A stretch of DNA of 64,000 bases from Alphaproteobacteria bacterium (GTDB lineage: Bacteria; Pseudomonadota; Alphaproteobacteria; Micavibrionales; Micavibrionaceae), in the NCBI GenBank assembly GCA_021776075.1, contig JAJFGQ010000079.1, positions 1 to 64,000 on the forward strand, in the 5' to 3' direction. The translations under genes and the position numbers were made by a program. This document shows, piece by piece, positions 16,255 to 27,729 of this stretch. Within the stretch, counting starts at the first letter, position 1. The number at the start of each line of letters is the position of its first letter. Under the pieces are notes generated by a model. That model searched no databases and had not been told where the DNA came from. It saw nothing but the letters and a program-made list of their open reading frames with translations.

Positions 16255-17214
16255 TTATTCTGCAGCGGTTAGCTTAGCTTCCCGGGCCATGCGGAGTTTT
16301 TCAAAGTCGTCTCCGGCATGGTAGGAGGATCTTGTGAGTGGTGTGGCTGACACCATCAAAAAGCCCTTGGCGCGGGCCATTTTTTCGAGTTGTTCAAATT
16401 CTTCCGGGGTCCAGAATCGGTCGACTGGCGCATGCTTGGTGGTTGGTTGCAGATACTGGCCGATGGTCAGGAAATCGACATTAGCAGCGCGTAAGTCATC
16501 CATCACCTGCCCTATCTCTTCCTTTGTTTCGCCGAGGCCCACCATCATACCGGATTTGGTGAATTGCAGAGGGTCGACTTCCTTCACGCGTTGCAGTAAA
16601 CGCAGGGAACGAAAATACCGCGCTCCGGGACGTACAGTTGGATAAAGGCGCGGTACGGTCTCCAGATTGTGGTTAAAGACATCCGGTTTGGCAGCAATGA
16701 CGGCATCTATAGCGCCCATGTCCCCGCGAAAATCGCCGGGCAGAATTTCGATTGTGGTTTGCGGAGATTTAAAGCGGATGGCTTCAATCGTTTTGATAAA
16801 ATGCCGCGCGCCACTATCCTTTATATCGTCACGGTCAACGGATGTGACGACGACATGTTTCAGGCCAAGCTTCTGCACAGCAACCCCCGTGCGCAGCGGC
16901 TCCATCTTGTCCAGTTCTGACGGCTTGCCGGTGGCGACATTACAAAAAGAACAGGCGCGGGTGCATATTTCGCCCATAATCATAAAGGTTGCGTGTTTTT
17001 TATCCCAGCATTCACCGATATTCGGACAACCCGCTTCTTCGCAAACCGTGTTCAGTTTTGCTTTATGAACAATATCACGGGTTTCATGATAAGTTTTGCC
17101 CTGCGGCGCTTTTACACGAATCCAGTCCGGCTTCCGCCCCATGGGACGGTCGGGGTTTTTTTGCTTCTCCGGGTGGCGCTTTGTTTTGTCCAGTAGCTCT
17201 TTATTATAGGTCAT
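16255..17214 (-). CDS. lipA: Lipoyl synthase
   Basis: LipA is a radical-SAM enzyme that inserts two sulfurs into octanoyl groups on lipoyl domains. The 319 residues show the auxiliary cluster cysteines 58, 63 and 69 ([12 protein letters not shown]), the SAM-cluster motif CTRACSFC at 84-91, and the C-terminal RSSYHA serine ligand. It stands in the pyruvate dehydrogenase block, whose only visible lipoyl domain (on E1-beta) is an expected substrate. The start at 17214 has AAAGGG only two bases upstream, an unusually tight spacing. A toxin-antitoxin pair and a small plus-strand gene separate it from lpd. Confidence 0.97.
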
Positions 17215-17712: not shown

Positions 17713-18078
17713 TCATTTATACGGAATATGAACATCCGGCTGGGACCCATCAAAATCTTTTGTGTTGCGGGTTACAAGCGAAGCAGAGAGTTTTTTTGCC
17801 GTAGCGTAAATCATCGCATCCGGTAATTTCAGCCTTCTTTCACGTCGTAAAAGAAGTGTCGTTTCATAAATGCTTTCTTCGGGATAGATAATCTCAAACA
17901 GGTCATTCATGAATTCTTTAGCTTGTTCCAGCTTTGGCGCCGGCACACCAACCAGAAACTCAAGCCATGTTATAACACTGATATAGCGTTCCGTGTAGGC
18001 GCTGAGTATTTCCTGAGCTTTGGGGTTAGCATAAGAGAAATCAATCAGGATATTTGTATCGAAGACAGCTCTGTTCAT
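17713..18078 (-). CDS. vapC: PIN-domain toxin, VapC-like
   Basis: VapC-type PIN-domain toxins are Mg2+-dependent ribonucleases that cleave tRNA or rRNA when released from their antitoxin. The 121 residues have the expected acidic quartet: Asp7 in VFDTNILID, Glu40 in ITWLEFLVG, Asp87 in LKLPDAMIYATA and Asp108 in TRNTKDF. The TRNxxDF ending is typical of the family. Its start overlaps the antitoxin stop by four bases (ATGA), giving antitoxin-first order. All catalytic residues are present, so the toxin looks active. The RNA target cannot be read from sequence. Confidence 0.9.
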   Translation of the reverse strand: MNRAVFDTNILIDFSYANPKAQEILSAYTERYISVITWLEFLVGVPAPKLEQAKEFMNDLFEIIYPEESIYETTLLLRRERRLKLPDAMIYATAKKLSASLVTRNTKDFDGSQPDVHIPYK

Positions 18079-18407
18079 TCCGGTTTTTCTTTGTCTTTTT
18101 CATGGGTGTAAGGAGGGACAGGTTTTTCATTCATTCCCCAATTGCTATACATTTCATCCCTTTGATCCCATTCTGCGCGCATTTTTCTTTCATATTCAAG
18201 CGCATCAAGGCCATCAAATGGCTGCAGGTCGTCTTTTAGAAACCCGAAATGCTTATCAAGTCCGCCGGCGGATTTGTTCTGTTGTTCAATGTCGAGATAA
18301 GTTTTGACGGCACGGCGTACAAGCTCGGCTCTGGAAAGGTCTTCCTTTTTTCCGAGCAAATCGAGTGCCTTGATCTGATTTTCGGGTATGTCTACAATTG
18401 TTCTCAT
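18075..18407 (-). CDS. vapB: Ribbon-helix-helix antitoxin, VapB-like
   Basis: The 110-residue product begins with an RHH DNA-binding motif (MRTIVDIPENQIKALDLLGK, then LSRAELVRRAVKTYLD). A long charged C-terminal tail follows, likely the segment that wraps the PIN toxin. The tail (about residues 45-110) is longer than usual for VapB and is rich in Lys, Glu, Trp and Asp. The ATG at 18407 has no Shine-Dalgarno. The promoter just upstream would place the mRNA 5' end on or next to this ATG, suggesting leaderless translation; an in-frame TTG at 18413 lies in or next to the -10. The palindrome inside that promoter is a probable autoregulatory operator. Confidence 0.82.
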   Translation of the reverse strand: MRTIVDIPENQIKALDLLGKKEDLSRAELVRRAVKTYLDIEQQNKSAGGLDKHFGFLKDDLQPFDGLDALEYERKMRAEWDQRDEMYSNWGMNEKPVPPYTHEKDKEKPE

Positions 18408-18414
18408 ACCCAAT

Positions 18415-18451: not shown

Positions 18452-19855
18452 CTAAAAATGTATGGCCCGGCCATAGGCGTCCAAAACGCTTTCATGCATC
18501 ATTTCGCTTAAGGTGGGATGCGGGAAGATCGTATGCATGAGCTCAATTTCTGTGGTTTCCAGCGTTTTAGCGATTCCATAGCCCTGAATAAGCTCTGTGA
18601 CTTCTGCCCCCACCATATGCGCACCGAGGAGTTCCCCGGTTTTGGCGTCAAACACGGTTTTGACCATGCCTTCCGGTTCACCCAGTGCAATGGCCTTACC
18701 GTTCGCCATGAACGGGAAGCGACCCACTTTGACCTTATGCCCCTTTTCAATCGCTGCCTTTTCAGTCAGGCCAACGGAGGCAATTTGAGGCGTACAATAC
18801 GTACAGCCCGGTATGTTTGAAGTTTCAAGCGGATGAATGTCATTTTTTCCGGCAATTTTTTCAACGCAGATGACGCCTTCATGGCTGGCCTTGTGTGCCA
18901 ACCATGGTGGTCCTGCGACGTCACCGATCGCGTAAACGCCGGATTCCCCTGTTTGCGACCATTCATTGACGATGATGTGGCCGCGATCGACCTTAATTTT
19001 AGGCATTTTATCCAGCCCGATATCCTCGACATTGCCGGTAATACCCACGGCCACAATCACGCGGTCGACCGTAATTTTTTCGGCTTTACCGTCAATGTCG
19101 ATATGAGCTGTGACATTGTCTTTACCCTTTTCTAATTTTGTAACTTTAGCACCTGTATGGATGGTTAAACCCTGTTTTTTAAACTGTTTATGCGCAAATT
19201 TTGATATTTCCTCGTCTTCAACTGGCAAAATACGATCCATAACCTCTATAACGGTCACTTTTGCGCCCATATTGTGGTAAAAACTGGCAAATTCGATACC
19301 AATTGCGCCGGAACCGACAACCAAAAGCGATTTAGGCATGGTTTCCGGTACCATAGCTTCTTTGTAGCTCCAAACCAGTTTGCCATCTGCTTCCAGACCC
19401 GGCAATTCCCGCGCCCGTGCGCCTGTCGCGATGATGATGTGCGGTGCGGACAGTGTATCAATCGTCTTTCCGTCCTTTTCCACGGTGACTTTGCCTTGCC
19501 CGGCCAGTTTGCCGTAGCCGTCAATGACGGTCACTTTGTTCTTTTTCAGGAGGTGCTGTACGCCTCCGGCAAGCTGTTTGGCCACGCCACGCGATCGTTC
19601 AATTATTTTCTTAAAATCAAAGAAGAACTCTTTGATAGTAAAGCCAAATTCACTAGCGTTGTTTAGCAAATGATTGATCTCGCTACAACGTAAAAGCGCC
19701 TTGGTCGGGATACAGCCCCAGTTCAGACAAATGCCGCCCAGATGAGTTGACTCCACCAAAGCCGTGTTCATGCCCAATTGCGCCGCCCGGATCGCCGCCA
19801 CATAACCACCCGGCCCGCCCCCAATTACAATAAGATCAAATTTTTGTTCAGGCAT
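18452..19855 (-). CDS. lpdA: Dihydrolipoamide dehydrogenase (E3)
   Basis: E3 is the FAD flavoprotein that reoxidises dihydrolipoyl groups with NAD+ in 2-oxoacid dehydrogenase complexes. The 467 residues show the FAD motif GGGPGG (12-17), the redox disulfide CLNWGC (Cys43, Cys48), the NAD motif GSGAIGIEFASF, and the C-terminal HPHPTLSE with the catalytic His-Glu pair. It is the E3 of the local pyruvate dehydrogenase. Its start overlaps the deoxynucleoside-kinase-like gene by eight bases, so the two are probably co-transcribed, which is not the usual pairing; E2 normally precedes lpd directly. Confidence 0.97.
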   Translation of the reverse strand: MPEQKFDLIVIGGGPGGYVAAIRAAQLGMNTALVESTHLGGICLNWGCIPTKALLRCSEINHLLNNASEFGFTIKEFFFDFKKIIERSRGVAKQLAGGVQHLLKKNKVTVIDGYGKLAGQGKVTVEKDGKTIDTLSAPHIIIATGARARELPGLEADGKLVWSYKEAMVPETMPKSLLVVGSGAIGIEFASFYHNMGAKVTVIEVMDRILPVEDEEISKFAHKQFKKQGLTIHTGAKVTKLEKGKDNVTAHIDIDGKAEKITVDRVIVAVGITGNVEDIGLDKMPKIKVDRGHIIVNEWSQTGESGVYAIGDVAGPPWLAHKASHEGVICVEKIAGKNDIHPLETSNIPGCTYCTPQIASVGLTEKAAIEKGHKVKVGRFPFMANGKAIALGEPEGMVKTVFDAKTGELLGAHMVGAEVTELIQGYGIAKTLETTEIELMHTIFPHPTLSEMMHESVLDAYGRAIHF

Positions 19856-20649: not shown

Positions 20650-20679
20650 TTGACATAATGCTGCTTTATGGCGTATAAA
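20650..20679 (+). promoter_or_regulatory. Promoter of the 20725 gene
   Basis: TTGACA at 20650-20655 and TATAAA at 20674-20679, 18 bases apart, form a strong sigma-70-type promoter. Transcription would start near 20686, so an ATG at 20668 lies inside the promoter and cannot be the start codon. The next in-frame ATG with a ribosome binding site is at 20725. Confidence 0.6.
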
Positions 20680-20724
20680 ATTCGAGTAATAAATTTATGT
20701 AAAAGATATCTCGGGAGATTGGTA

Positions 20725-21354
20725 ATGGAAAAATTTGAAGATGTAGAGCACATTATAACACGTCCCTATTTGGTCTTTCCGCATTTTGCGAGTGGAAACC
20801 ATTTAAACCCATCACTATCTGTTCTGGTTATAGAGACAAAAGCCAGCCGGGATAGAGAGGATTCCAATCTTTGGAATATGGGAGTTGTAAGAGACTGGGC
20901 CGGGTTTATGGATTTGAAGGATGGTGCTAAACAATGGCGTTTTAACTATATGGGGGATGATTATGGTGGATACCCTCGTCGTGATATGTGCGAGTTAGGC
21001 AAAGAATTAGAGAATTTCGGGTTTACACGCCCAGAGGCAAGGCGTTCTCGTTGGGAGTCCTGTAAGTTTGGGCTAAGTGCCGACGAGCTCTTAAAGTCGT
21101 TTGCAAGAGTGGATGTGGTGGTAGGGCTAGGTGATAATACTAGCCCTTTTATAGCGCCTTTCTCAAATGCTGTTGTTCGCAATGTCGTTAATGATTTTTA
21201 TCCAGGCTTGTCAGAGTCTCCTGAAGTTAAAGAGAAAATAGGCCTTACAGAGCCCAACACGGTCTGGCTTAATGAGGCGGAAGAGCTTTACAAGGATTAC
21301 CAGAGAAGAAACTCACCGGGGAATGGTGGGCTGAAACAGATTAGACCAACATAG
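20725..21354 (+). CDS. Hypothetical protein, 209 residues
   Basis: I do not recognise this protein. The start at 20725 (MEKFEDVEHI) is set by GGGAG seven bases upstream and by the promoter position. The product is soluble with no signal peptide. It contains an aromatic and glycine-rich middle (WNMGVVRDWAGFMDL, FNYMGDDYGGYPRRD) and a VDVVVGLGDNTSPFIAPFSN segment, suggesting an alpha/beta fold. Its last 14 bases overlap the opposite-strand end of the E2 gene. It is the only plus-strand gene between lpd and pdhC and carries its own strong promoter, in line with an accessory insertion. Confidence 0.6.
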   Translation: MEKFEDVEHIITRPYLVFPHFASGNHLNPSLSVLVIETKASRDREDSNLWNMGVVRDWAGFMDLKDGAKQWRFNYMGDDYGGYPRRDMCELGKELENFGFTRPEARRSRWESCKFGLSADELLKSFARVDVVVGLGDNTSPFIAPFSNAVVRNVVNDFYPGLSESPEVKEKIGLTEPNTVWLNEAEELYKDYQRRNSPGNGGLKQIRPT

Positions 21355-22261
21355 ATACCGGGGTTTCAATATATTGTTTGAGGATTTGCAGATATTCCGC
21401 GCCGACGGCACCGTCGACGGACCGGTGATCTACGGATAATGTGCAGGTCATGAAGGTTCCGATTTTTATTTCTCCGCCATCGACAAAGGGCTTTTGCTCC
21501 CCTGCCCCCACAGCCAGAATGCAGGATTGCGGCGGATTGATGATGGCGCCGAATTCTTTAATACCAAACATACCCAGATTGGAAACGGTGAATGTACCAC
21601 CCTGAAATTCTTCGGGTTTGAGCTTCCCTTCACGCGCCCGGCCTGCGAGGTCTTTGACTTCTTCTGAAATCTGGCGGAGGCCCTTGTTCTCGGCCTCTTT
21701 AACAATTGGTGTAATCAGGCCGTTCGGTGTGGCGACAGCTACGGAAATATCGGCATGCTCATATTGCAGGATCGCATCTTCGGTCCACGATGTATTGGCC
21801 GCCGGGTACGTGTTCAGAGCATTGGCGCAGGCCTTGATAATGAAGTCATTAACGGAAAGCTTGTATTCGCCGTTGGCTTTATCATTAATTCCCTTCCGTG
21901 CAGCCATCAGGGAATCGATCCGGCATTCAATGGTCAGATAAAAGTGCGGGACTGTTTGTTTGGCTTCCAGCAGGCGCGTCGCTACGATTTTACGGATATT
22001 GTTGTTCGGAATCTCTGTGTAGGTCATGCCGAGAGCGTTAGACATTTGTGCGGCATCCGGCCCGGAAGACGCCTGCGTTGCGGCTTTGGACGGCGCTATT
22101 ACTGGCGCCGCACCGGCTTTCGCGCCTTCAATGTCAATCTTCACAATCCGGCCATGAGGGCCGCTGCCTTTAATAGCAGACAGATCAACGCCTTTCTCTG
22201 CCGCAATGCGGCGGGCAAGAGGGGAAGCAAATAGTCTTGGTTCAGTGGCTGGCTGACTCAT
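21341..22261 (-). CDS. pdhC: Pyruvate dehydrogenase E2 (dihydrolipoamide acetyltransferase) without lipoyl domain
   Basis: E2 forms the core of the complex and moves the acetyl group to CoA. This copy is 306 residues, about 100 or more shorter than the usual alphaproteobacterial E2. It starts directly with the peripheral subunit-binding domain (residues of about 8-44: LFASPLARRIAAEKGVDLSA, then KGSGPHGRI). An Ala/Pro linker (45-72) leads to a complete catalytic domain ending with HRSVDG at 279-284, whose His279 and Asp283 are catalytic. No lipoyl domain precedes it: only 59 bases separate its ATG from the upstream Hsp70-like stop, and they hold an 8-bp tandem repeat. E1-beta carries the only lipoyl domain here. 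AAAGG directly abuts the ATG, a poor spacing. Confidence 0.9.
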   Translation of the reverse strand: MSQPATEPRLFASPLARRIAAEKGVDLSAIKGSGPHGRIVKIDIEGAKAGAAPVIAPSKAATQASSGPDAAQMSNALGMTYTEIPNNNIRKIVATRLLEAKQTVPHFYLTIECRIDSLMAARKGINDKANGEYKLSVNDFIIKACANALNTYPAANTSWTEDAILQYEHADISVAVATPNGLITPIVKEAENKGLRQISEEVKDLAGRAREGKLKPEEFQGGTFTVSNLGMFGIKEFGAIINPPQSCILAVGAGEQKPFVDGGEIKIGTFMTCTLSVDHRSVDGAVGAEYLQILKQYIETPVSMLV

Positions 22262-22274
22262 CCTTTATATTTAC

Positions 22275-22297
22275 CACCAAGACACCAAGGCACCAAG
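22275..22297. repeat. Three-copy 8-bp tandem repeat
   Basis: The plus strand reads CACCAAGA, CACCAAGG, CACCAAG in a row with a period of eight bases. It fills the gap between the Hsp70-like gene and the E2 start. Similar CACCAAG-rich intergenic repeats occur in many unrelated bacterial genomes, to my recollection. It may mark the rearrangement that left E2 without its N-terminal domain. Confidence 0.7.
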
Positions 22298-22320
22298 TTT
22301 TTCCTGCAAGTCTGTTTTCG

Positions 22321-23595
22321 TTAGCTGGAAAAAGCATGTTGTGCGTATTGGGCAAGCCCCGTGCCGACACTATCCATTTTATGATCATCGGATAATTCAG
22401 CATCAGGAAACTGTTCCCGGACAAAAGCTTTTATGCTTGGTAGCTCGGTTGAACCACCTGTCATGATAACCATATCAATCTGATCTTTTTGTATAGTGGC
22501 TTTGGTAAGGCATTCTTCCATAGTTGTCTTTATTTTCCGGATATCATCTTCGATTATACGGTCAAAGATTTCCCTCTGTACCGTCACCTTGAAATCAGTC
22601 CCGAGAGGTTGGAATGTAACTGTTGTGGCTGGATTATCCGACAGGTCTATTTTGGCTTTTTCGGCTTCTTCGAGCAAGGAATAGCCAAGTTGCTTTTCCT
22701 GTATCGACAAAAGATGTTCTAACTTATCAGGTTCCAGAGCCCTTGCTTTTAAGGATATGGTTTGGCGAATGGATTTGGAAGAATGTGCCCTGTATATACG
22801 GGACCAGTCAGATAAATCCGAATATACGGAAAGTGGCATGTCATATAGCTTTTGTGAATCAAAGGCATCTCTATACCGGGAGTTTAACCCCAGGGGAGAC
22901 ATCAGGAATTTCATGCTAATGCGCTGATCAAATGTTGTGCCGCCGACTTTAACGCCGGATGTCGCGAGGACGTCTTCTGTACGGTTTGACTTGTTTACAT
23001 TGCTTTGTGACAGGCGGATGACGGTAAAATCAGATGTGCCTCCTCCCAGATCCATAACAAGAGCCAGCTTTTCACCTTTGATCCGTGTCTCATGTGCAAA
23101 CGCGGCCGCTATCGGTTCGTATTGAAAAAGAACGTTTTTAAACCCTATGGACTTTGCTATGTCTTCCAAAGACTCTTGTGCCTGTGTACTGGCAACAGAA
23201 TTGTTGTCATGAAAATGTACAGGGCGTCCTATGACTACATTTTCTATGGTCTGATTTGCGTGTTGTTCAGCCTCTTTTTTTAAATGCTTTAAATAGATGG
23301 CCAGAATATCCAGAAAACTTGTGGGTCTGCTGTTTATCAGCGTTTTGTCATCCATCAGTGATGTGCCAATAATTTTTTTAATTCCCCGCAGAAGACGACC
23401 TTCTTCTCCGTCTAAATAGGCATCAATGGCTTTGCGTCCATAGAGTATTCCCGTCGTTTCCCCAAAGAAAAGAGCGCTTGGCAGGGTTGTTTTATTATTT
23501 TCCAGCGGAATCAGTTCTATGGCCCCCTCATGCGCAATGGCTACTGTTGAGTTGGAGGTCCCAAAATCGATTCCGCAGGATATTTTGTTTGGCAT
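22321..23595 (-). CDS. Hsp70-like ATPase, YegD type, lacking a substrate-binding domain
   Basis: This 424-residue actin-like ATPase has the Hsp70 phosphate-1 motif GIDFGTSNS at 8-16, phosphate-2 DLGGGTSDF near 207-215, and the adenosine motif MTGGSTELPSI near 385-395. It ends right after the nucleotide-binding domain, so it has no peptide-binding or lid domain, like Escherichia coli YegD. Such proteins lack an established chaperone cycle, and their client is unknown. No good Shine-Dalgarno precedes the ATG. The gene is divergent from the thioesterase and directly upstream of the lipoyl-less E2, where alphaproteobacteria normally have only pyruvate dehydrogenase genes. Confidence 0.85.
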   Translation of the reverse strand: MPNKISCGIDFGTSNSTVAIAHEGAIELIPLENNKTTLPSALFFGETTGILYGRKAIDAYLDGEEGRLLRGIKKIIGTSLMDDKTLINSRPTSFLDILAIYLKHLKKEAEQHANQTIENVVIGRPVHFHDNNSVASTQAQESLEDIAKSIGFKNVLFQYEPIAAAFAHETRIKGEKLALVMDLGGGTSDFTVIRLSQSNVNKSNRTEDVLATSGVKVGGTTFDQRISMKFLMSPLGLNSRYRDAFDSQKLYDMPLSVYSDLSDWSRIYRAHSSKSIRQTISLKARALEPDKLEHLLSIQEKQLGYSLLEEAEKAKIDLSDNPATTVTFQPLGTDFKVTVQREIFDRIIEDDIRKIKTTMEECLTKATIQKDQIDMVIMTGGSTELPSIKAFVREQFPDAELSDDHKMDSVGTGLAQYAQHAFSS

Positions 23596-23666
23596 GATTT
23601 GGCTTATATCCTATGCAGTCTGAAAAGGCTCTGGAAAAAGTAATGGGTATGAACTAGTCTTGCAAT

Positions 23667-24077
23667 ATGAATGATCATCCCATGCCCGACCCGCATAACG
23701 ACCCCGATTATGAGCTATCCTTAAAAACGATTGCTATGCCGGCGGATACCAACGCCAATGGCGATATTTTCGGCGGTTGGCTTCTTTCACAGATGGATTT
23801 GGCCGGGGCAACCCACGCCATTCACTATACAAAAGGCCGCGTTGTAACGATAGGAATCGAGGCCATGTCTTTCCATGAGCCTGTTTTTGTTGGGGACGGT
23901 CTTATCCTTTACACAAAAATAACAAAGGTGGGACGGACTTCGGTCACTGTCCATATTGAAAGCTGGGCGCGGCGTTCCCGACAAGGCGATGTTACAAAGG
24001 TTACAGAAGGCTTGTTTACTTTTATTGCGATGGATGATGATCGTCACTCTGTCTCTATAGAAGAGCGTCGTGGCTAA
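23667..24077 (+). CDS. Acyl-CoA thioesterase, YciA-like hotdog fold
   Basis: This 136-residue single-hotdog acyl-CoA hydrolase has the family signature NANGDIFGGWLLSQMDLAGA near 29-48, in which the Asp and Gly line the thioester site, followed by VTIGIEAMSFHEPV (near 67-80) and VEVHIESW-like VTVHIESWAR. It would release free fatty acids from short to medium acyl-CoAs in the cytoplasm. It lies alone on the plus strand, divergent from the Hsp70-like gene and convergent with the next gene (32 bases between stops). No clear Shine-Dalgarno is visible before the ATG. Confidence 0.88.
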   Translation: MNDHPMPDPHNDPDYELSLKTIAMPADTNANGDIFGGWLLSQMDLAGATHAIHYTKGRVVTIGIEAMSFHEPVFVGDGLILYTKITKVGRTSVTVHIESWARRSRQGDVTKVTEGLFTFIAMDDDRHSVSIEERRG

Positions 24078-24109
24078 ACCTAAGCTGTGACCCTTCTTTT
24101 TCCCTGTTT

Positions 24110-25156
24110 TTATAAAGTCAGATTGGCAGATGTTCTTACAACAGGTTTTTGCAACGGTGTTTGAACATCCAGTTCAATTTCGGCCTGTTTTAAAATACTA
24201 TCAAACTCTGCTCTGTAGCTTTTTTCAAATTGTCTTGGATCATAAATTTCCGGGTCAAGATCGTGTTTTGTAAGAAAATCATGAATATCTGAATCGGACA
24301 TATCATCTATCAAAGTTAAGGGGCCGGGCTTATCAAATAAATGCATTTGTTCGCCGGCAGGGGATTCGTAATCAGAGGGTAGGGATTCATCTGGAAGCAT
24401 GCTCGTCATAACAGAAGGCAATTCCATTTCCTCAAATCGCTTGACTAAACTATCCTTATAATGATGAAGGCCATTCCCTTCGTCTTCAATGCCAAAACAA
24501 TGCGCCGCCCCGGTCGGTAAGAGTGCTACACCTCCATTTTTATCCAGTTCTGCTTTTATAGTCTGCGCCATAAACGTATTACGGATAAGCATGTCATCGG
24601 GGCCGCACTCTCCTGCATTGCCCCTGCGTGCGTTAAGCTTTGATGCGATTTCGTCTGTGAAATGATCTGAATAATCCATACAAAAGTCTGCCGGATATAC
24701 ACGCGCGGCATCGGCGCAGACTATTTTGATGCCGTGATGTATCGCTGCTTGCAGCAATAATTGGCTTTCAAAAGCATGAAAATGTGTTTTTCCGCTTAAA
24801 GACTCCTTGTTTCCACCGATAATGGCTTTGGCTGTAATATGCCCTTCAGTGTCGTATGCTGTAATATGCTGTGCTAATTTCAGAGCGTTATCCGTGCCGT
24901 ATCCCCTGTCTAATAAAATGGTATAAAGACGATTATGAGGATATTCCATGAAAAGAGTAACATCTTGCTGTCTTGCCGCAAATTCTTTCAAAGCCAACGC
25001 TTGTGATACTTGATGAGAGAATATGCTATGATGTTCACCCATTGCCAAAACAACGCTATGGCCTTGTTCAGCAAGATCCAACGTTTTTTGTACAGATTGC
25101 TGTGCCACTTCCAGCGGATTTCCAGTTTTAGAAGATTGCTCAAATTCTTTTTGCAT
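24110..25156 (-). CDS. Putative TraB/ChaN-like (TIKI-like superfamily) protein
   Basis: The 348-residue protein is not confidently recognised. Its layout resembles the EreA/ChaN/TraB-like superfamily: AMGEHHSIFSHQ near residues 39-50 (GExH core), LFMEYPHN near 68-75 (conserved Glu), and RNTFMAQTIKAELDKN followed by GGVALLPTGAAHCFGI near 192-222, where family members have an R..MA..I helix and a strand ending in GxxH. Members include hydrolases and metalloproteases, so the role is open. The last 110 residues are an acidic tail unlike that superfamily. The ATG at 25156 has no Shine-Dalgarno and coincides with the predicted transcription start, so a leaderless mRNA is likely; a TTG at 25183 lies in the promoter. 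Confidence 0.55.
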   Translation of the reverse strand: MQKEFEQSSKTGNPLEVAQQSVQKTLDLAEQGHSVVLAMGEHHSIFSHQVSQALALKEFAARQQDVTLFMEYPHNRLYTILLDRGYGTDNALKLAQHITAYDTEGHITAKAIIGGNKESLSGKTHFHAFESQLLLQAAIHHGIKIVCADAARVYPADFCMDYSDHFTDEIASKLNARRGNAGECGPDDMLIRNTFMAQTIKAELDKNGGVALLPTGAAHCFGIEDEGNGLHHYKDSLVKRFEEMELPSVMTSMLPDESLPSDYESPAGEQMHLFDKPGPLTLIDDMSDSDIHDFLTKHDLDPEIYDPRQFEKSYRAEFDSILKQAEIELDVQTPLQKPVVRTSANLTL

Positions 25157-25162
25157 AATTAT

Positions 25163-25191
25163 ATTATAATGATATGGGGTCAATAATGCAA
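25163..25191 (-). promoter_or_regulatory. Promoter of the 24110-25156 gene
   Basis: On the minus strand TTGCAT (25191-25186) and a perfect TATAAT (25168-25163) are 17 bases apart. The expected +1, six to eight bases after the -10, is the A of the ATG at 25156. A second TATAAT overlaps one base further on (25163-25158). Confidence 0.55.
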
Positions 25192-25231
25192 AAACAAGCG
25201 CAGTGTCTGGGATATCTAGACAAATAGCTCT

Positions 25232-26680
25232 CTATGTTGTGTAACAAACCTCTTTGACCACATGGATGATTTCGTCCACTTGCGGCAGAGCAAGTTGCTC
25301 CAGATTGGCGGCATAAGGCATGGGCACATCGGCACCGCAAACCCGTTTGATGGGTGCGTCGAGATAATCGAAGGCATGTTCGATGCAGAGTGCGGCAATT
25401 TCCGATCCGATCCCGGCAAAGGGCCACCCTTCTTCTACACAGACAAGACGGTTTGTCTTTTTAACGCTTTCAATAATCGTCCAGCGATCTAGTGGACGAA
25501 TGGTCCGTAAGTTAATGACTTCGGCATTGATCCCCTGTTCTGCGAGTTTTTCCGCCGCTTCAAGGGACTTTCCAACCATGATGGAAAAAGAAACAATCGT
25601 AACGTCCGTGCCTTCACGTTCAATTTTTGCGCGCCCCAGAGGAATGGTGAAGTCTTCGTCCGTGGGAATATCAAAGCTCTGTCCGTACATCATTTCGTTT
25701 TCCAGGAACACGACAGGGTTGGGGTCACGAATGGCGGATTTCAAAAGCCCCTTCGCATCAGCAGCAGACCACGGTGCCACGACTTTCAGGCCCGGCACAT
25801 GGGCATACCAGCTGGCGTAGCATTGCGAATGCTGTGCGCCGACACGGGAAGCGGCGCCGTTTGCGCCACGAAAGACAATCGGGCAACCCATTTGTCCGCC
25901 AGCCATATATAAAGTTTTAGCAGCGGAATTAATAATATGGTCGATGGCCTGCATGGCAAAATTCATAGTCATGAATTCGACGATTGGTTTCAAGCCGTTA
26001 TAGGCCGCGCCAACGCCGAGACCGGTAAAGCCGTGTTCTGTAATCGGCGTATCAATGATGCGTTTGTCACCGAATTCGTCCAGCATACCCTGCGAAATTT
26101 TATAGGCTCCGTTATATTCAGCGACTTCTTCGCCCATCAGGAAAACGGTGTCATCACGCCGCATTTCTTCGGACATGGCATCACGCAAGGCATCACGTAC
26201 GGTTAAAGATTGTGTAGTCTTCATAAACGCCGCTTCATCAAAAGGCGGCGGCTCGATCACTGTACCCTGTGCGTACAGAATATCGCGGTTTTCAACATGA
26301 GCGCCGGCAGGCTGACTGATAATTCCGGGAGAGGCAGCCAGAGGTTGTTCTTCATCGGTGACCTCCTCCGTTACCGGCGGCGGTGTTTCTGTTTTTACCG
26401 GTTTTGAGGGCGCTTGGTCCAATGCGCTTTCGTCTTCACCCTCTTCCAGAAGCAGGGCAATAGGCGTGTTAACAGCAACGCCTTCAGTGCCTTCTGCGAT
26501 TAGGATTTTACCGATTGTGCCTTCGTCTACGGCTTCGACTTCCATTGTGGCTTTGTCTGTTTCAATCTCGGCAATGACATCGCCGGCTTCAACGGCATCG
26601 CCTTCGGATTTAAGCCATTTGGCCAAGTTCCCTTCGGTCATGGTCGGCGATAAAGCAGGCATTAAAATTTCAATAGGCAT
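25232..26680 (-). CDS. pdhB: Pyruvate dehydrogenase E1 beta with N-terminal lipoyl domain
   Basis: E1-beta shares the thiamine-diphosphate active sites with E1-alpha. This 482-residue form carries a complete lipoyl domain at residues 1-82, with the lipoylated Lys43 in [13 protein letters not shown] Pro/Thr/Glu-rich linker (about 83-150) follows, then the transketolase-like E1-beta domain ([18 protein letters not shown] onward, [13 protein letters not shown]) and the C-terminal transketolase domain. This fusion is usual in alphaproteobacteria. Here it matters more because E2 has no lipoyl domain. AGAGGAAG precedes the ATG, and pdhA ends 11 bases upstream. The interval to E2 is filled by three unrelated genes. 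Confidence 0.97.
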
Positions 26681-26691
26681 TTGTTCTTCCT

Positions 26692-27729
26692 CTAATCTTC
26701 CAATTCCAGCAAAATATCCGTCCAGAGTTCTGCTGGATCGGGTTCCTGTGATTCCTGAGCGAATTGTGCTGCTTCATTAACAATAACTTTGATTTCTTTG
26801 TCGATTGCCTTGATCTCGTCTTCTTTTATATCGCCCTCTTTCATCATTCTTGTTTTTAATGTCTGAAGAGGATCGCGTTCGTTTTTGACCTTGTTGACTT
26901 CTTCCTTTGTCCGGTATTTGGCCGGATCAGACATGGAATGGCCACGGTAACGGTATGTCATCATCTCCAGAATATAAGGGCCGTTTCCTGTGCGAACATA
27001 ATCAAGGGCCTGCCGGGTAGCATTGCGAATGGCAAAGACATCCATGCCGTCAACCTGTTCGCCGGGAATACCGTATCCTGCCCCACGCTGGTAGAGTTCG
27101 CCGGCAGCATGGCGCACGGCACTCGTGCCCATACCGTATTTGTTGTTTTCAATAACGTAAAGAACGGGGAGATTCCACAAAGCGGCCATATTATAGCTTT
27201 CCGCAACCTGCCCCTGATTGGCGGAGCCGTCGCCCAGATAAGTGACAGAGACACCGCCGTCGTCTTTGTATTTATGGGCGAACCCGAGCCCCGTGCCTAA
27301 GGCAACATTGGCGCCAACAATACCGTGACCACCGTAGAAGTTCTTTTCCTTGCTGAACATATGCATGGAACCGCCTTTGCCCCCGGAGTAACCGCCGCGG
27401 CGGCCTGTCAGTTCGGCCATCACGCCCTTTGGGTCCATGCCGCAGGCGAGCATATGCCCGTGGTCGCGGTAGGTTGTTATAATGGAGTCATGCTGTTCCT
27501 GAACGGAATGAACGCCGGTGACGACGGCTTCCTGTCCGATATAAAGATGGCAGAACCCGCCGATGAGACCCATGCCGTAAAGCTGCCCTGCTTTTTCTTC
27601 AAAGCGCCGGATTAGCAACATCTCCCGGTAGAAGGTTTTCATTTCCTCCAGAGACGGTTCAGGGGTGCTGTTCGAAACGGTTTTAAGATGTGGTTTTTTA
27701 CTTTTTCCACCTGATTTTTTTGCGGCCAC
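26692..27729 (-). CDS. pdhA: Pyruvate dehydrogenase E1 alpha
   Basis: E1-alpha decarboxylates pyruvate with thiamine diphosphate. The 345 residues contain the ThDP motif from GDGSANQG (166-173) to VIENN (192-196), the phosphorylation-loop-like region [16 protein letters not shown], and a basic N-terminus ([13 protein letters not shown]) often seen in alphaproteobacterial E1-alpha. Translation starts at GTG 27729, with AGGAGAG four bases upstream. The gene follows ftsB and precedes pdhB by 11 bases, the standard order. Confidence 0.97.

Follow-up and report, generated by a model that had tools for sequence, protein, structure and literature searches.

The pyruvate dehydrogenase (PDH) genes analyzed here lie in a 64,000-nucleotide stretch (hereafter the window; positions 1 to 64,000 of contig JAJFGQ010000079.1, assembly GCA_021776075.1) of an alphaproteobacterium from the Micavibrionaceae, and they encode an acetyltransferase subunit, E2 (pdhC), that has no lipoyl domain together with an E1-beta subunit (pdhB) that has a complete one. 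Textbooks illustrate active-site coupling with the swinging lipoyl arm of E2. Based on sequence comparisons, we consider it highly probable that the window encodes a working PDH complex whose sole acetyl carrier is the lipoyl domain of E1-beta, acting in trans on the E2 core. We observed the domain content itself, its conservation, its recurrence in relatives, and no other carrier in the genomes searched. The arm acting on the E2 core is most likely that of E1-beta, given the domain content, the invariant catalytic residues, the conserved E1-beta domain and the recurrence.

E2 without a lipoyl domain

An earlier note, made from the letters of the window alone, had claimed that E2 starts at its subunit-binding domain and carries no lipoyl domain. 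The Pfam scan agreed, returning only E3_binding (residues 11–45) and 2-oxoacid_dh (residues 80–305) and no Biotin_lipoyl match. The claim that the bases upstream of pdhC cannot hold a lipoyl domain also stands, as the second codon ahead of the ATG is an in-frame stop and the open frame extends by only one residue upstream. Among NCBIfam families TIGR01349 fitted the window E2 best; however, the alignment begins at profile position 136 of 437, and because the first 135 positions are without a counterpart, the score of 433.9 bits lies below the cut-off of 445, with the practical consequence that this E2 falls just under the threshold of its best-fitting family. The catalytic His/Asp domain and the subunit-binding domain typical of TIGR01349 are present and the N-terminal lipoyl domain is absent. 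Judged by its sequence, the protein thus departs from the strict definition of the family in the lipoyl feature and agrees with it in the other features of the enzyme. The AlphaFold model (mean predicted local distance difference test score, pLDDT, 85.0) contains a subunit-binding domain with pLDDT of 77–87, a stretch below 50 at residues 52–63 and a folded core, and a Foldseek search with this model returned E2p cores as the best matches (9j1w, 55% identity).

E1-beta and its lipoyl domain

The earlier note had also assigned a complete lipoyl domain with Lys43 to E1-beta, which the analysis bore out. NF008854 covered residues 1–480 with 803.4 bits (cut-off 454), and both the lipoyl domain and the transketolase-type core were present. 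Asp42-Lys43, which lies in the sequence ETDKAT in the window, is invariant in the E1-beta of all six genomes that encode the short E2 (see below), and Lys43 is the predicted site of lipoylation. The domain of the window E1-beta is 72–91% identical to the PDH lipoyl domains of relatives, and the lipoyl domain of SucB is distant in a tree of such domains. In the AlphaFold model (mean pLDDT 78.2, predicted template modeling score, pTM, 0.68) the lipoyl domain forms a block with pLDDT of 74–92 (residues 1–90), followed by a stretch below 50 at residues 92–138, which is likely disordered, and by a folded core that is weaker at residues 275–285. The best Foldseek match was human E1-beta (6cer, 61% identity). 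Among 58 solved chains found by sequence, none spans both the lipoyl domain and the E1-beta core in its best stretch.

Relatives with the same architecture

Comparison with close relatives, which the earlier note had suggested as a check, revealed that the short E2 is shared by six genomes from three genera. The order-level sample contained 142 genomes, of which 127 matched the window E2 at E ≤ 1e-85; the nearest sequence records are mostly metagenome-assembled. An E2 frame starting at the subunit-binding domain was found in the window genome (G000) and in G009, G014, G121, G122 and G123, belonging to genera g1, g10 and g15 of one family. By Pfam, each of the six E2 proteins has two domains only, and each of the six E1-beta proteins has a lipoyl domain. 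His279 and Asp283 of the DHRSVDG motif, which we take to be the active-site residues of the window E2, are invariant among the six, as are most residues of the subunit-binding domain. The upstream part of E2 was checked by motif in a set of loci, and most open-frame lengths elsewhere are lengths without a domain scan.

The four g10 genomes (G009, G121, G122 and G123) have E1-beta and E2 side by side: in G009 and G122 the E2 start follows the E1-beta stop by 5 bases, and in G121 and G123 it overlaps that stop. Genes that abut or overlap leave no place for a lost 5' part of pdhC, and an assembly error is therefore very unlikely. Such an error at 22262–22320, or a wrongly chosen start, was the artefact to be considered for the window, which comes from an 87-contig draft where pdhC stands beside a gene insertion and a short repeat; however, the same E2 boundary in five further genomes, the 5-base spacing in G122 and two more cases in another family (G260 and G363) make this explanation extremely improbable.

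We checked 42 genomes by BLAST for a lipoyl domain on both subunits. The domain was present on E2 in 35 and on E1-beta in 41, in line with the expectation of the earlier note that relatives normally carry it on both. The seven genomes without an in-frame E2 lipoyl domain are the six and a frameshifted one, G076, and the sole E1-beta exception is G079, in which E1-beta is cut by the contig end. G076 was rejected as a case of domain loss, since its E2 core and E2 lipoyl domain are encoded in separate reading frames (L153:8703-10048, in a one-contig genome); a low-complexity stretch of the SPSGRGQGEGS type lies near the frame junction, and a frameshift, an insertion or a sequencing error may be involved. 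Other short E2 frames, in G057, G208, G228, L083, L122 and L138, were likewise set aside as cut by contig ends, and the missing E1-beta lipoyl domain of G063 is also due to a contig end. G069, a congener of G014, gave no match to E2 or E1-beta, and G297 has a 343-residue frame near a contig start, for which the frame length is the only information.

A class-wide sample of 289 genomes, 206 of them with matches, added the following cases among the matches listed, and further cases are possible. In G260, E2 has 299 residues and no lipoyl domain and E1-beta has one. G363, from the same family and the only other genome of that order in the sample, encodes by translation an E1-beta with a lipoyl domain followed by an E2 whose first domain is the subunit-binding one and which the contig end truncates further on. 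A third form was found in G413 (89% complete), where an 883-residue frame (L192:2207-6825) joins E1-alpha, E1-beta and a C-terminal lipoyl domain and is followed by a gene that by eye resembles a 2-hydroxyacid dehydrogenase and then by an E2 without a lipoyl domain. The converse was also seen: G026 encodes an E1-beta without a lipoyl domain (L195:6495-7538, 348-residue frame) and, on another contig, an E2 with one (L194:4659-5882), and in G074 an E1-alpha/E1-beta fusion of 735 residues (L197:4173-6377) is without the domain and E2 retains its own. Among the genomes examined for domains with both genes uncut, none has lost both lipoyl domains, and all eight genomes without the E2 domain (the six, G260 and G363) have kept the one on E1-beta.

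Search for other lipoyl carriers and E2 proteins

The window genome comprises 2,289,099 bases in 87 contigs and is 93% complete; completeness is 90% for G014, 91% for G122 and 99% for G009, G121, G123 and G260. A second full-length PDH E2 elsewhere in the genome was one of two findings that, according to the earlier note, would refute its proposal. The PF00198 search of the window genome, within its completeness, revealed just two E2-type acyltransferases, i.e., the short PDH E2 and a longer protein named SucB by NCBIfam, which has its own lipoyl domain. Each of the six genomes has exactly two such proteins, the short E2 and one longer, and a second PDH-type E2 was found in none of them.

PF00364 matches above the cut-off in the window genome were SucB, E1-beta and frames of 152 (BCCP-like), 677 (carboxylase-like) and 139 residues (GcvH-like), the last three named by size and match position; five more matches were partial and below the cut-off. 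Across the six genomes, the matches above or near the cut-off were E1-beta, the longer E2 and frames with the sizes of BCCP, a carboxylase and GcvH, the rest being partial, and E1-beta bears the only PDH lipoyl domain found in them. The window PDH therefore has one detectable lipoyl domain, which is on E1-beta. No free-standing lipoyl-domain protein was found among the PF00364 matches of the six genomes, although a divergent one could escape this search and a partial match in a 495-residue frame of G009 was left unclassified. The PF00364 matches of G260 contained no further PDH lipoyl domain.

As all six genomes encode a longer, lipoyl-bearing E2, it is conceivable that SucB, the E2 of 2-oxoglutarate dehydrogenase, lends its lipoyl domain to the PDH E2 core in trans, with only an accessory role for the domain on E1-beta. 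Actinobacteria offer an example of lipoyl groups supplied by one complex to another, as the Corynebacterium PDH E2 serves OdhA (PMC10415282). Nevertheless, the E1-beta of all six genomes has a complete lipoyl domain that includes the lipoyl lysine, this domain in the window resembles the PDH lipoyl domains of relatives and SucB's does not group near it, and it was retained in all eight genomes seen without an E2 domain, so that we regard supply by SucB as very unlikely.

We give a similarly small chance to the explanation that the short E2 is decaying or repurposed and that acetyl-CoA comes from another route. The open frame and the active site are maintained across six genomes in which E2 is 71–76% identical to that of the window, E1-beta and E2 are adjacent in four genomes, the PF00198 search offered no second PDH-type E2 to take over, and E1-alpha, E1-beta, E3 and LipA of the window are intact and above their family cut-offs; the earlier note had likewise described E3 and LipA as intact. 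The decay explanation can appeal to the three unrelated genes that part E2 from E1-beta in the window, and to a search aimed at E2 proteins in which AceE-type E1 and pyruvate:ferredoxin oxidoreductase were not searched for.

Proposed mechanism

Transfer by the E1-beta arm in trans, as the earlier note had proposed, is supported by these tests, and a possible course of the reaction is as follows. E1 (alpha2beta2) and E3 would dock on the subunit-binding domain of the lipoyl-less E2 core. The domain with lipoyl-Lys43, which a ~69-residue linker tethers to the core of E1-beta, would be reductively acetylated at the E1 active site, after which the acetylated arm would swing to the catalytic site of E2 and pass the acetyl group to coenzyme A; it would then reach E3 for reoxidation. 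We estimate that the extended linker could span well over 100 angstrom, and reach should therefore be no obvious obstacle.

Several observations weigh against this proposal. Within the six genomes, the E1-beta lipoyl domain equals the core in conservation, which favours the proposal, but exceeds it by only about one point (84.4% vs 83.2% identity; 81.6% for both in 16 double-armed relatives). The linker of the six (66–74 residues) is no longer than that of 17 further family members (53–75 residues), and therefore no visible adaptation marks the change. Three genes lie between E1-beta and E2 in the window, and none in the g10 genomes. The three less complete genomes, G000, G014 and G122, are the ones in which a second E2 could have been missed. 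Finally, the additional partial PF00364 match of G009 is barely above the cut-off (22.5 vs 22.1 bits).

Evolutionary history

In a 42-genome tree of E1-alpha, the E1-beta core, the E2 core and E3, the six genomes form one branch (ultrafast bootstrap, UFBoot, 92), and in a 45-genome tree without E3 this branch has an SH-like approximate likelihood ratio test (SH-aLRT) value of 98. The 42-genome tree does not group genus g10 together, as G009 and G122 stand apart from G121 and G123 with an inner support of 57, and the branching order among the six is therefore uncertain. The ancestor was probably double-armed and lost the copy on E2, with one loss in the branch of six as the simplest history. 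Forcing the eight genomes (the six, G260 and G363) into one clade was rejected by the approximately unbiased (AU) test under LG+C20 (p 0.0014) and not under LG+G4 (p 0.092). Since the single clade was rejected in one model only, two origins of the armless E2 are likely, not certain. Reliance on the E1-beta arm alone seems to be a stable rearrangement that probably evolved repeatedly.

Within a genome, the two lipoyl domains average 81.3% identity (34 genomes), above the between-genome values for the same domain (77.5 and 77.1%) and for the two domains across genomes (75.7%). This higher likeness within genomes hints at gene conversion or exchange between the lipoyl domains of pdhB and pdhC. 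As for an origin of the E1-beta domain by transfer from E2, the branching in a tree of 77 short domains was unresolved.

The window locus

The coordinates of the PDH genes and domains are given in Table 1. Three genes at 22321–25183, i.e., an Hsp70-like gene, a thioesterase and a 357-residue frame, separate pdhB and pdhC. Directly upstream of pdhC, at 22273–22297, there is a 25-base repeat of the CACCAAG type, which occurs as a single copy in the window; among 199 loci, its 16-base core was found only in two loci covering the same place. On the plus strand, a 228-residue frame (20668–21354) for which Pfam gave no match shares 14 bases with the 3' end of pdhC. Between lipA and the E3 gene, at 17713–18413, a pair of small frames resembles by eye a PIN-domain toxin and a ribbon-helix-helix antitoxin.

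Table 1. Positions of the PDH genes, their domains and associated features in the window.
Feature	Position	Strand	Description
pdhA	26692..27729	minus	E1-alpha, 345 aa; PF00676; TIGR03182 483.9 bits, above cut-off
pdhB	25232..26680	minus	E1-beta with N-terminal lipoyl domain, 482 aa; open reading frame, Pfam, NF008854
Lipoyl domain of E1-beta	26453..26671	minus	Residues 4-76, predicted lipoyl Lys43; Biotin_lipoyl 68.4 bits
pdhC	21341..22261	minus	E2 dihydrolipoamide acetyltransferase, 306 aa, without lipoyl domain; open reading frame, Pfam, TIGR01349
Peripheral subunit-binding domain of E2	22127..22231	minus	Residues 11-45; PF02817 (E3_binding) 64.5 bits
Acetyltransferase catalytic domain of E2	21347..22024	minus	Residues 80-305; PF00198 (2-oxoacid_dh) 288.2 bits; DHRSVDG motif
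Gap upstream of E2	22262..22320		59 bases up to the stop of the Hsp70-like gene; too small for a lipoyl domain
lpd	18452..19855	minus	E3 dihydrolipoyl dehydrogenase, 467 aa, without Biotin_lipoyl; above NCBIfam cut-off
lipA	16255..17214	minus	Lipoyl synthase, 319 aa; TIGR00510 378.4 bits, above cut-off

Significance

If the proposed transfer is true, these would be natural complexes with a normal E2 core and an arm only on E1, and they could show directly if the acetyltransferase has to carry the arm itself and how E1 occupancy affects coupling. A natural series for comparison already exists in sister genomes, some of which have both arms and others the E2 arm only. The arrangement also points to a possible role for the additional lipoyl domain that E1-beta carries in alphaproteobacteria. 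With the sole arm on E1, how many arms there are and how the active sites are coupled would depend on the number of E1 tetramers on the core, not on the core itself, and alphaproteobacteria would have reached this state at least twice by losing the arm on E2 (the Micavibrio-like clade and family f126), with G413 as a third form; we regard this wider proposal as probable.

Comparison with known systems

The PDH of Zymomonas mobilis, with a lipoyl domain on E1-beta, was reportedly described by Neveling and co-workers. Alphaproteobacterial PDHs of this type share with the window an E1-beta with an N-terminal lipoyl domain, E1-alpha, an E2 that best fits the mitochondrial-type model and E3; however, E2 has its own lipoyl domain too in most relatives of the window, as counted above, and the window E2 has none. 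Two curated E2 profiles, NF008815 (PRK11857, 308 positions) and NF011416 (PRK14843, 347 positions), start at the subunit-binding domain and ~40–50 positions before it, respectively, which is too late to include a complete lipoyl domain. In the window E2, residue 10 corresponds to position 4 of NF008815 and residue 12 to position 51 of NF011416, although the scores are far below the cut-offs of both (149.9 vs 378 and 210.9 vs 429 bits).

In the PDH of Mycoplasma hyopneumoniae, according to PMC7873978, PdhD (E3) is the lipoylated protein identified, so that the lipoyl domain is off E2 and on another PDH subunit, as in the window. The two systems differ in the subunit concerned, as the Mycoplasma domain is on E3 and that of the window is on E1-beta, with the window E3 having none. 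The E3-borne domain had already been described and is therefore a precedent for an arm on a peripheral subunit. PMC7873978 also cites Zymomonas mobilis for a lipoyl domain on E1; its discussion puts this domain on PdhA (alpha), and the title of the paper cited there says E1-beta.

According to PMC10415282, actinobacterial OdhA/KGD relies on lipoyl groups from the PDH E2 in trans, and it thus resembles the proposed window complex in having an acyltransferase that uses lipoyl groups in trans. In contrast to the window, E1 and E2 are fused in OdhA/KGD and the E2 that supplies the lipoyl groups belongs to a different complex. A PDH with its sole lipoyl domain on E1-beta was not found in the portions of the open-licence literature covered, most subscription journals being outside the search. 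A lipoyl domain located off E2 is thus already known, and a sole arm on E1-beta, as predicted from the window, would be a new form of that arrangement.

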